Shown here piece by piece: positions 11,751 through 34,619 of a DNA stretch of 39,951 nucleotides (position 1 is its first letter; the number at the start of each line of letters is the position of its first letter). The notes under the pieces are model-generated. The model was not told the DNA's origin. It did not search any database and saw only the letters and a list, made by a program, of their open reading frames with translations. The position numbers and the translations under genes are program-made. The DNA lies in NCBI GenBank assembly GCA_009778355.1, contig WRJY01000336.1:1-39951 (forward strand), read 5' to 3'. The stretch comes from Desulfovibrionaceae bacterium. GTDB taxonomy: Bacteria; Pseudomonadota; Gammaproteobacteria; Burkholderiales; Burkholderiaceae_C.

Positions 11751-11800
11751 GATTGCGGGCGATTGTGGCGCATGAACGCGTGCGCCGGGCGGCTGTTGCT

Positions 11801-11873
11801 GCGTCATCGTTGCGTCATCGTTGCGTCATCGTTGCGTCATCGTTGCGTCATTGTTATGTCATCAAATTGTCAC
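11801..11873 (+). promoter_or_regulatory. Tandem Pho-box array (7 PhoB half-sites, 11-bp period) upstream of pstS
   Basis: GCGTCAT-N4 repeated x5, then ATGTCAT and TTGTCAC, all in exact 11-bp register. TACATT (11884-11889), a plausible -10, begins 10 nt after the last half-site. Confidence 0.85.
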
Positions 11874-11926
11874 ATGGGCTGCCTACATTGCCTTGTGTCC
11901 GCTTCAACCACGAGAGACTTTTTGCA

Positions 11927-13014: not shown

Positions 13015-13255
13015 GCCGCGGGCCCCCATCCCAGCCTTCCCCCAGAGGGGGAAGGAGCAAGACTTCTTCTCCCTCCGAGGGAAAGTTTTCCATTCCCTCC
13101 CTCTCTGGGGGAAATTTTTCCATTCCCTCTCTCTCTGGGGGAAAGTTTTTCATTCCCTCTCTCTCTGGGGGAAAGTTTTTCATTCCCTCCCCTCTGGGGA
13201 AAAGTTTTCCATCTCCTCCCCCTCTGGGGGAGGGTAGGGTGGGGGCCTGCGGCGC
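13015..13255. repeat. Intergenic repeat element in pstS-pstC gap containing five about 30-bp tandem units
   Basis: Outer GGGCCCCCATCCCAGCCTTCCCCC ... GGGGGAGGGTAGGGTGGGGGCC imperfect inverted ends. Inside, CCCTCTCTCTCTGGGGGAAAGTTTTTCATT-type units repeat with about 30-bp period at 13081-13230. Confidence 0.8.
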
Positions 13256-19214: not shown

Positions 19215-21272
19215 TCACCCCGCGCCCAGCGCCAGCGCCGCGCGGTACGTGACGAAAGCCGCCAGGTAGGCCAGCCCGAACAACTGCGCCAGCATGACCA
19301 GCGGAGTGCGCCAGCCGCCTGTTTCGCGCTTGACGGCGACCAGGGTGGACACGCATTGCGGCGCGAACACGTACCAGGCCAGCAGCGCCAGCGCGGTGGC
19401 CAGGCTCCAGCTTTGCGCCAGCAGCGGTTCGAGTTGCCGCGCCACGTCGTCGCCGCTGGCCGACAGCGCGTACACCGTGCCCAAAGCGCCCACCGCCACT
19501 TCGCGCGCGGCCATGCCGGGCACCAGGGCGATGGCGATTTGCCAGTTGAAGCCCACCGGGGCCAGCAGTTTTTGCAGCGCCAACCCGATCTGCCCGGCCC
19601 AACTGTGCAAGATGGCCGGCCCGGCGGCGCCCGGCGGCGGGGCGGGGTAGCTGGAGAGGAACCACAGCAGCACCATCACCGCCAGAATGATGCCGCCCAC
19701 CCGCCGCAAAAAAATGCGCGCCCGCTCCCACAGCCCGAAAGCCAGTTGGCGCGGGCTGGGCCAGCGGTAGGCCGGCAGTTCCATGATGAGCGGCGTGGGC
19801 TGCGCGCCCTGACTGGCGTTGCCCAGCCGGTAGCTCCAGGCCAGGCCGAGCGCGCTCAGAATGCCCGCCAAATACAGTGCGAACAGCACCAGCCCTTGCA
19901 GATTGAACCAGCCGGCCACCGCGCGGTTGGGAATGAAGGCGGCGATCAGCAGCGCATACACCGGCAGCCGGGCCGAGCAGGTCATCAGCGGCGCGATCAT
20001 GATGGTGACCAGCCGGTCGCGCCAGTGCGTGATGGTGCGCGTGGCCATGATGCCTGGCACCGCGCAGGCAAAGCTCGACAGCAGCGGAATGAACGAGCGC
20101 CCCGACAGCCCCACGCGGCCCATCACCCGGTCCAGCAAAAAGGCGGCGCGCGGCAGGTAGCCGGAGTCTTCCAGCGCCAGGATGAACAGAAACAGAATCA
20201 GAATCTGCGGCAAGAACACCAGCACGCTGCCCACGCCGGCAACGATGCCGTCGGCCAGCAGGCTGCGCAGCGGCCCTTCGGCCATGTGCGCGTGAACGAA
20301 TGCGGCGGCGCCCTTCATGCCGCTTTCGATCCAGCCGGCGGGCACGGCGGCCCAACTGAACACGGCCTGAAACATCAAAAACAGCAGCGCCGCCAGAATC
20401 GCCATGCCCCACAGCGGGTGCAGCAGCACGCGGTCGATGGCGTCGTCGCGCGCCAGCGGCTGCTCGGGCGCCTGCACGGCTTCGCGCACGATGCGCTGCA
20501 CTTCGTGGTGGGCCAGCATCACTTCCTGCACGCCGGGCGGCTGGCTGGCGGCGGCGGCGCTGCGCTGAACCAGCGGCGGGCGGCGCGCGTCCAGCGCCGC
20601 CACCAGCGCCCTGGCGCCGCCGGCCTGCACGCCCACCGTCGGCACCACCGGCGCGCCCAGCAGCGCGGCCAGGCGTTCGGTGTCGATGCGGATGCCCAGC
20701 CGCTCGGCCATGTCGCTCATGTTCAGCGCCACCAGCATCGGAATGCCCAGCCGCCGCGCTTCCAGCACCAGACGCAGGTTCAGGCGCAGCTTGGTGGCAT
20801 CGACCACGCACACCAGCAGGTCGGGCAGCGCCTCGCCGGCGCGCTGGCCGGTAACCACGTCGCGGGTGATTTCCTCGTCCAGCGACAGCGCGTTCAGGCT
20901 GTACGCGCCGGGCAAATCCAGCACCACGGCATCGCGCCCGCTGGGCAGATGCAGGCGGCCTTCCTTGCGCTCCACCGTGACGCCGGCATAGTTGGCCACC
21001 TTCTGGCGGCTGCCGGTCAGCAGGTTGAACAACGCCGTCTTGCCGCAGTTGGGGTTGCCCAGCAGCGCCACGCGCAAGGGGCGAGTGGCCTGGGGGCTGC
21101 CGGCAACGGGGCGCGGCGGCGGCTCCCCCGCTGGGAGTTGAGCGTTGAGCGTTGAGCGTTGAGCGTGGTCCGGGTCAGGACGCTGAACGCTGAACGCTGA
21201 ACGCTGAACGCTGAACGCTGAACGCTGAACGCTGAACGCTGAACGCTGAACGCTTTTTTGCGGGGCGGTCAT
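19215..21272 (-). CDS. feoB: Ferrous iron transport protein B with heptad-repeat-encoded N-terminus
   Basis: GNPNCGKTALFNLLTG G1 motif, NYAGVTVERKEG, FeoB nucleoside-recognition/gate regions. N-terminal SVQRSAF x3+ repeat; ATGA overlap with feoA. Confidence 0.95.
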   Translation of the reverse strand: MTAPQKSVQRSAFSVQRSAFSVQRSAFSVQRPDPDHAQRSTLNAQLPAGEPPPRPVAGSPQATRPLRVALLGNPNCGKTALFNLLTGSRQKVANYAGVTVERKEGRLHLPSGRDAVVLDLPGAYSLNALSLDEEITRDVVTGQRAGEALPDLLVCVVDATKLRLNLRLVLEARRLGIPMLVALNMSDMAERLGIRIDTERLAALLGAPVVPTVGVQAGGARALVAALDARRPPLVQRSAAAASQPPGVQEVMLAHHEVQRIVREAVQAPEQPLARDDAIDRVLLHPLWGMAILAALLFLMFQAVFSWAAVPAGWIESGMKGAAAFVHAHMAEGPLRSLLADGIVAGVGSVLVFLPQILILFLFILALEDSGYLPRAAFLLDRVMGRVGLSGRSFIPLLSSFACAVPGIMATRTITHWRDRLVTIMIAPLMTCSARLPVYALLIAAFIPNRAVAGWFNLQGLVLFALYLAGILSALGLAWSYRLGNASQGAQPTPLIMELPAYRWPSPRQLAFGLWERARIFLRRVGGIILAVMVLLWFLSSYPAPPPGAAGPAILHSWAGQIGLALQKLLAPVGFNWQIAIALVPGMAAREVAVGALGTVYALSASGDDVARQLEPLLAQSWSLATALALLAWYVFAPQCVSTLVAVKRETGGWRTPLVMLAQLFGLAYLAAFVTYRAALALGAG
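21137..21254. repeat. Heptanucleotide tandem repeats: (GTTGAGC)4 at 21137-21164 and (CGCTGAA)10+CGCT at 21181-21254
   Basis: Direct reading; both arrays lie in the feoB 5' coding region and are approximately reverse complementary to each other. Confidence 0.97.
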
Positions 21273-21592
21273 GCGGTTTCTCCGCCCTCGCCTTCGGGCT
21301 GCACCCGCACCAGTTCGGCCTCGCGCCGGCGCAACGCGAAAGTGGACTGCCCGCCCAGCCGCACCGCCACCGGTTCGCGCCCGCCAGCGGCGCGGGCCAC
21401 GACGCGCACCGTTTCGCCGGGCAGAAAGCCGATTTCGATCAACCGCAGCAGCACTTCGTGCTCGCCTTCGTCTTGGGGCGCGCCCAGTCTGACGATGGTT
21501 GCGCGCGCGCCCTGGCGCAGCGCGTTCAACGGCAGCGCGTCAACGGCATCGAGCACGCTGCCCGAAAGGAATGGAGCGGAAGCGGCGATCAT
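21269..21592 (-). CDS. feoA: Ferrous iron transport protein A (start uncertain)
   Basis: LNALRQGARATIVRLG...LLRLIEIGFLPGETVRVVARAAGG...VAVRLGGQSTFALRRREAELV FeoA SH3-like domain; overlaps the feoB start. The ORF track starts at 21610, but the upstream portion overlaps the Fur-like palindrome. Confidence 0.88.
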   Translation of the reverse strand: MIAASAPFLSGSVLDAVDALPLNALRQGARATIVRLGAPQDEGEHEVLLRLIEIGFLPGETVRVVARAAGGREPVAVRLGGQSTFALRRREAELVRVQPEGEGGETA

Positions 21593-21613
21593 AATGAGAG
21601 TAGTTCTCATTAT
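21591..21613. promoter_or_regulatory. Fur-box-like palindrome between feoA and ruvB
   Basis: ATAATGAGA-GTAGT-TCTCATTAT, a perfect 9-bp inverted repeat with 5-nt spacer resembling Fur boxes, immediately upstream of feoAB. Confidence 0.8.
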
Positions 21614-30362: not shown

Positions 30363-30935
30363 ATGCAAGCATTTCACGGCACCACCATCATCAGCGTGCG
30401 CCGGCAAACCCCAGAAGGCTGGCAGGTGGCCATCGGGGGCGACGGCCAGGTCACGCTGGGTAACATCGTCGTCAAAGGATCGGCGCGCAAGGTGCGCAAG
30501 CTCTACCACGGCAGGGTGCTGGCGGGTTTTGCCGGCGCCACGGCGGATGCCTTCACGCTGTTCGAGCGTTTCGAGGCCAAGCTGGAAAAGCACCAGGGCC
30601 ACCTGACCCGCGCCGCCATCGAGCTGACCAAGGACTGGCGCACCGACCGCGTGCTGCGCCGCCTGGAGGCCATGCTGGCTGTGGCCGACAAGAGCGCTTC
30701 GCTCATCATCACCGGCAACGGCGACGTACTGGAGCCTGAGCACGGGCTGGTGGCCATCGGTTCCGGCGGCGCCTATGCGCAGGCGGCGGCCAAGGCGCTG
30801 CTCGATCACACCGAATTGCCCGCCGAACAAATCGTCAAGAAGGCGCTGGAAATCGCTGGCGAGCTGTGCATCTACACCAACATGCAGCACACCGTCGAAA
30901 CGCTTGGTGATGCGGGTTCCGCGTCGGGCGTTTAG
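30363..30935 (+). CDS. hslV: ATP-dependent protease subunit HslV
   Basis: TTIISVRR N-terminal catalytic Thr, [27 protein letters not shown]. Confidence 0.97.
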
Positions 30936-30982
30936 CGTTTAGCGTCCCACGCTCAACGCCCAACGCCCACGCTCAACGCTCA
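30928..30982. repeat. Heptad repeats (GCGTTTA)2 ... (ACGCYCA)5 between hslV and hslU
   Basis: Direct reading; the first unit supplies the hslV stop codon. Same motif family and polarity as the feoB heptads. Confidence 0.85.
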
Positions 30983-30993
30983 ACGAACGCCCC

Positions 30994-33443: not shown

Positions 33444-33701
33444 ATGGGCATTATCCTGTTTGTGAACAGGAAGATAAAGCCCTCACATACAAGGAGAGTC
33501 TTCGCCTTCAATCTGAGGGCTACGCGTGAACGACTCGGATTGTCTCAGGAGGCGCTGGCCGATGCTGCGGGCCTCCATCGAACTTACGTCGGCTCGGTGG
33601 AACGAGGCGAGCGGAACATCTCCATCGACAACATCGAAAGACTGGCGACGGCGCTCGAGATCGATCCTGCGTCTTTATTGGCGGGAGGCTCGAAGAAGTG
33701 A
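33444..33701 (+). CDS. XRE-type HTH restriction controller (C) protein
   Basis: [63 protein letters not shown]; small HTH ORF overlapping the REase start. Confidence 0.88.
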
Positions 33702-34240
33702 TCTTCTTGCCGCACAGCGACTACAAGCGCCTGCTTCAAGTCTGGCCCGCCGTTCAAGAGTATCAGACCCTTGCCACCAAACACGGGATTGATGACGTGT
33801 TTCAAGACAACGGCGGAAAGCTTCTCCAGGTGCTCTTGCTTCTGGGCCTGAAGATCATCCCGGGCCGCGAGGGCAACGACGCCATTGACACTGAGGGGCG
33901 CGAGTATGAGTTGAAGTCAGTCAACATCGAACTGACGCACGGTTTTTCCACGCACCACCACATGAACCCGGCCATCATCGCCAAGTACCGGCAAGTGCCT
34001 TGGGTGTTCGCTGTCTATCGAGACATCGCGCTACAGACTGTCTACCTACTGGAGCCGGCTGACTTGGAGTTCTACTTCACCAAGTGGGAAGAGAAGTGGC
34101 ACGCGGACGGAAGGAAGGACATCAACAACCCAAAGATTCCCATCAAGTACGTGATGAAGTACGGCAAGCTGATACACGGCACTGCGCCGGGTCTTTCCAT
34201 CAAACGTAAGAAGGTCGTGACGAACAAGCGCAAGCCGTAG
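33698..34240 (+). CDS. PvuII-like Type II restriction endonuclease
   Basis: GTG start overlapping the C-gene stop. [75 protein letters not shown] strongly resembles R.PvuII (D..ELK catalytic motif). Confidence 0.93.
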
Positions 34241-34293
34241 CTATGGCTATGGCTATGGCTATGGCTATGGCTATGGCTATGGCTATGGCTATG
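34240..34293. repeat. Hexanucleotide tandem repeat (GCTATG)9 immediately after the REase stop codon
   Basis: Direct reading. Confidence 0.97.
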
Positions 34294-34619
34294 GCGAAGG
34301 GTTGCAACATCGCAACCGTTCCGGTCGGCAGGTGCAACACGGCGCGGCGATTCGTAGAAGGCATCTTCTGTCCTGTGCTTCCCAAGCTCCAGCGCAGGTG
34401 CGGTCATGGCTTCCCGTTGAGTGGTTGGATTCGCCGTGTCAGTGCGGCGGCACAGGCGCGGCAGCCGCCCAGGGTTAGCGATTTACTTTGACTGTGTTCG
34501 CTAAGTTGTTAATTACAAAGGTTTTTGTCCTTGGTATCTCGCCAAAGGCCCATCTAACACATTGATTTCATTGAAATAATTTACTGTTTCCCTGTTGCGC
34601 GGCGCTCAATTCCTGCTAC

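Follow-up and report, generated by a model that had tools for sequence, protein, structure and literature searches.

An expanded palindromic heptad element in the N-terminal tail of FeoB, very probably one copy of a dispersed repeat family

The feoB locus and its heptad arrays

The window (the whole stretch of 39,951 nucleotides analyzed here) encodes feoA and feoB on the minus strand, and two arrays of heptanucleotide repeats lie within the open frame of feoB near its 5' end. The features of the locus are as follows.

19215..21272, minus strand: feoB, a 685 aa open frame with FeoB_N from residue 67, followed by Gate and FeoB_C (PF02421, PF07670, PF07664)
21269..21610, minus strand: feoA (PF04023), the stop of which overlaps the feoB start (ATGA)
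21132..21256, minus strand: complete palindromic (hairpin) element, in frame at approximately residues 7-47 of FeoB (covariance model score 79.3 bits, E 2.2e-22; fold z -10.1), absent from the FeoB of congeners
21180..21254, minus strand: expanded arm of 10.7 AGCGTTC copies on the coding strand, 100% matches (TRF)
21167..21179, minus strand: spacer or loop; GCGTCCTGAC.....CCACGC around the spacer recurs unchanged in a further copy of the element in this genome, on contig C53
21137..21166, minus strand: second arm of 4.3 ACGCTCA copies on the coding strand, 100% matches (TRF), with an inverted core

The FeoB N-terminus reads MTAPQK SVQRSAFSVQRSAFSVQRSAFSVQR PDPDHA QRSTLNAQ... Within the window, lag-7 identity extends over at most 68 consecutive bases, compared with a maximum of 13 among 200 first-order random sequences with the neighbour frequencies of the window. 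The cores of the two feoB arrays are inverted (AGCGTT / AACGCT), and together the arrays form a hairpin with an MFE of -52.9 kcal/mol (z -10.1). A sequence-only reading of this DNA had placed 10.6 AGCGTTC units and four ACGCTCA units in the feoB frame, coupled the feoB ATG to the feoA stop, and seen no Met codon between the array and the GTPase domain. Each of these observations holds, the unit counts being 10.7 and 4.3, both perfect; the only candidate codons for an internal start are the TTG at codon 66 and the GTG at codon 68. That reading overlooked the hairpin pairing of the two arrays and the second copy of the element in the window. A classical -1 slippery site at AAAAAAG was considered and rejected, as the codons show that the zero frame is offset from it.

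Three other repeat regions occur in the window. In the interval that separates a Ppx/GppA gene from a PstS-like gene (11800-11875), approximately six 11-base repeats of TGCGTCATCGT and then TGTCATCAAATTGTCAC are present; with their 11-base period and TGTCA words they form a candidate extended Pho-box array. A PvuII-type restriction endonuclease gene (33698-34240) is followed, immediately after its stop, by a (GCTATG) x 9.3 tract (34240-34295), and five 30-base tandem repeats (GGGAAAGTTTTCCATTCCCTCCCTCTCTGG) at 13079-13231 are mainly non-coding and located between called genes.

Effect of unit gain or loss on FeoB

The consequences for the reading frame were checked by adding and removing heptads in silico. 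A change of +1, -2, or +4 units brings a stop right behind the array, as had been claimed for one shifted frame, with a 34 aa product at +1. After a change of -1 or +2 units, reading continues for 53 codons beyond the array and stops just past the G1 motif (82 aa at -1), so that the stop at the G1 region proposed for the other shifted frame stands and its proposed length of about 45 codons does not. The frame remains open after three-unit changes. In these simulations, adding or removing one or two heptads cuts FeoB to 20-40 or 68-96 residues, varying with copy number, which bears out the earlier claim that a single-unit change shifts the frame and truncates the protein. Both arms, as oriented, are stop-free in any frame, so feoB stays open whenever the net length is divisible by three; in this assembly FeoB should be ON.

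A dispersed palindromic element

The feoB arrays share a bipartite, inverted anatomy that recurs across the genome and the genus, GGTTS(AGCGTTS)n-loop-(SAACGCT)nSAACC, in which arms of the heptad AGCGTTS / SAACGCT flank a variable loop and the whole element measures approximately 62-120 bp. The window contains a second copy.

30911..30989, no strand assigned: palindromic element (59.7 bits) at the 58-base gap between HslV-like (proteasome-family) and HslU-like (AAA_2) genes

Heptad arrays were found in 11 of the 29 genomes of the genus (comparison set of one genome per species), and a reversed-pattern control gave zero. A covariance model (R1), built from 20 compact copies (alignment A1), matches 16 of the 29 genomes (E up to 0.01), and the feoB copy scores about 79 bits. 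The matches come in strand pairs and are dispersed in many copies, reaching 114 strand-paired matches, or approximately 57 elements, in one genome among the best 150 scored candidates per genome, as counted from the search listings. The palindromic nature is apparent both from the consensus arms and from the fold of a single copy (z -10.1). Few both-side changes occur in the arms because the arms are nearly invariant.

Copies of the element are mostly intergenic. According to a simple codon-usage caller, 31 array clusters are intergenic, 8 lie at gene edges, and 6 lie in ORFs; this classification began with 40 arrays from tandem-array loci, and the caller missed the feoB tract because it placed the gene start behind it. 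When a wider sample of the bacterial family was searched with stricter filters (E up to 1e-6), matches occurred in 16 of 301 genomes, representing 9 of 141 genera. Matches beyond the family are weaker, and some of these loci have no clear heptads around the densest spot. The loop word was discarded as a family marker, given that exact matches occur in the feoB and C53 copies only and matches with three mismatches are mostly due to chance. RAYT was likewise rejected as the mobilizing enzyme, as its presence does not correspond with element load: Y1_Tnp is absent from the genomes G006 and G007, both 99% complete, which have about 35 and 7 elements.

The arms of orthologous copies differ in length between species. 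The arm of an intergenic copy beside rsmA has 14.1 units in one species and 3.9 in another, and that of a second orthologous intergenic copy (L152/L251) has 7.9 versus 1.9. Among 16 in-gene copies, feoB alone has a perfect arm of at least 5 units (the next longest has 4.4); the corresponding proportions, 1/16 in genes versus 15/80 elsewhere, are not significantly different (Fisher p 0.29) in a sample partly chosen by tandem repeats. Such interspecies differences in arm length elsewhere make slippage at feoB plausible.

In-frame copies in other genes

In a sample of 96 copies, 16 lie in frame within genes, at 10 sites in 8 genes; this fraction is biased, as the sample was picked by score and tandem repeats. 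Spurious or antisense in-ORF cases were removed by hand (L254, L169, L149, L298 322-390, and the reverse frames of L299 and L265), and the host gene families were confirmed by Pfam.

uvrA-type gene: in-frame element at two sites, six copies
ligA: in-frame element in two species
cobQ: in-frame element at two sites
hydantoinase/oxoprolinase gene: in-frame element in two species
alaS, a carboxyltransferase gene, lnt, and feoB: in-frame element

Empty ortholog sites are available for two of these unrelated genes. Between fixed motifs of ligA, the orthologs with and without the element have 171 and 96 nt (net 75 nt), and the equivalent distances in alaS are 159 and 90 nt (net 69 nt). One common reading frame for all insertions can be rejected because more than one phase is used; every frame gives an identical cyclic peptide, as three heptads equal seven codons. 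In the window genome, the lnt copy (L143 2695-3001) has expanded into a long, degenerate array that repeats every seven codons (21 bases) and so maintains the frame.

A second coding repeat, with peptides like LPLPLAGEGWGEG and LTPTLSPEGRGS, occurs in congeners (L265, L256, L336, and L335) at the heptad-element sites of cobQ, the uvrA-type gene, and ligA. The occupation of the ligA, cobQ, and uvrA sites by GEGRGEG-type repeats in other congeners suggests that these sites are insertion-tolerant hot spots.

FeoB in relatives

No heptads are present in the linkers between the start and G1 of congener FeoB proteins (G001, G002, G006, G009, G014, G020, G024, G025, G027, G028, and others), which measure 30-45 codons and retain the ATGA-coupled start. 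Nor was an array found at 78 FeoB loci in a wider set, which have at most one isolated AGCGTT/AACGCT hexamer; beyond the genus, FeoB similarity suggests a position within Burkholderiales, close to Acidovorax and Variovorax. Because congener FeoB orthologs are without the element, the feoB insert appears to be an insertion private to the species, and we infer a gain at feoB, not a loss in relatives. As the linker is not conserved, neither the insertion boundary in feoB nor an empty site there can be placed with single-base precision. In the AlphaFold model, FeoB residues 1-61 have pLDDT values below 50 and no secondary structure, so the insert lies in an unstructured segment as judged by pLDDT, an assignment that applies to FeoB only. 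Matches to feoB in two frames were seen in G006 (L020/L027) and G025 (L021/L026), away from heptads, and may represent frameshifts or sequencing errors.

Discussion

The feoB repeats are very probably one copy of a dispersed hairpin-forming element with one of its arms expanded; the copy lies in frame in the N-terminal tail of FeoB, a region that is not conserved. The element would have inserted in frame into the tail and added a disordered peptide, which FeoB presumably tolerates. One arm may then have grown to 10.7 perfect heptads via slippage or unequal exchange, as judged from other loci, and from this point a change of one or two heptads would truncate FeoB. The sequence-only reading had proposed a phase-variable Fe(II) transporter and, as a fallback, a general repeat family that slid into the gene. 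The fallback is the better-supported half, as the element is palindromic and dispersed, absent from congener linkers, and in frame in unrelated housekeeping genes. Of the phase-variation idea, the in-frame, non-triplet repeat and the truncation upon unit change stand, whereas an evolved contingency locus is weakly grounded because the insertion at feoB is not conserved. Phase variation of feoB might arise as a side effect and would not be a conserved trait. As a by-product, the inserted copy probably raises the mutability of feoB above the normal level, and FeoB loss via slippage is likely more frequent than in an ordinary gene.

A true contingency locus, in which the tract would be maintained by selection as a slippage-driven on/off switch of Fe(II) uptake in a fraction of the population, is improbable. 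The tract is perfect, non-triplet, and near the 5' end, truncation depends on frame, heptad arms differ in length between species at other loci, and feoB is the sole in-gene copy with a long perfect arm, albeit not to a significant degree. However, no congener has the tract, and the element is also found in frame in ligA and alaS, two genes that would hardly benefit from being switched on and off. We found no description of repeat-mediated feoB phase variation in the literature.

Slightly less probable still is that FeoB translation starts mainly downstream of the repeats, at the TTG or the GTG, which would make the tract a leader without effect on the frame. The codon-usage caller places the start at 21077, the TTG, and FeoB proteins in the wider set can begin a few residues before G1. 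On the other hand, the unusual composition of the array skews the start call, the arms fold strongly between feoA and the internal candidates, and congeners retain the coupled start and a linker of 30-45 codons. An assembly artefact affecting the array or its length is very unlikely: the source is a metagenome-assembled genome (62.8% complete, 338 contigs) and N runs interrupt such arrays in G006, but the 75-base tract is shorter than common reads, its frame is intact with flanks running into feoA and the GTPase domain, and similar elements are present in single-contig genomes of the family.

An extension of the preferred reading, that of a dispersed element inserted into feoB, is that in-frame hairpin elements with expandable heptad arms could seed phase-variable loci, in that an insertion would at first be neutral and subsequent arm growth would make the host gene (in this case feoB) reversibly switchable. 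We regard this as a rather unlikely conjecture.

Comparison with known repeat systems

The tract at feoB resembles simple sequence repeat contingency loci, such as those of Haemophilus influenzae (PMC2651432), in being a non-triplet tandem repeat in frame, where a unit change shifts the frame. Unlike those loci, it is not conserved and is part of a mobile-looking element, in a comparison with one genome per species. REP/BIME repeats, which are associated with RAYT transposases (PMC3733652), are also short, scattered, mainly intergenic palindromes, although the element-rich G006 and G007 genomes described above lack Y1_Tnp. The TAACTGA heptad direct repeats of Beggiatoaceae, cyanobacteria, and Bacteroidetes (PMC4679880) similarly form dispersed, mostly intergenic arrays that are long in some species, with occasional ORF copies in the stop-free orientation. 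However, they consist of another heptad, are direct repeats as opposed to the paired inverted arms found here, and have ORF copies mostly at protein ends. A literature search for the heptad sequence itself returned one unrelated match.

The best match in kind appears to be the protein-coding palindromic repeats of Rickettsia (Rickettsia palindromic elements, RPE) and Wolbachia, described by Ogata and colleagues as cited in PMC10969869 and PMC2996958; in the literature considered, such repeats are reported from Rickettsia, Wolbachia, and Methanocaldococcus jannaschii. As in those systems, short palindromic DNA is scattered in many copies, some of which interrupt unrelated housekeeping genes in frame and are tolerated where the protein is unstructured. 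The likeness drawn here is one of anatomy and insertion pattern. RPE are approximately 150 bp according to PMC10969869, compared with about 62-120 bp here, and the present elements differ in having Burkholderiales hosts, arms of expandable heptad tandem repeats, and mostly intergenic copies. In this Burkholderiales family, insertions are present in ligA, alaS, cobQ, lnt, and a uvrA-type gene, and sister species offer clean empty sites for comparison, so that both the insertion step and its consequences for essential proteins become directly testable in culturable bacteria. With their heptad arms, these elements combine in-frame repeat insertion and microsatellite mutability, which are usually treated apart.
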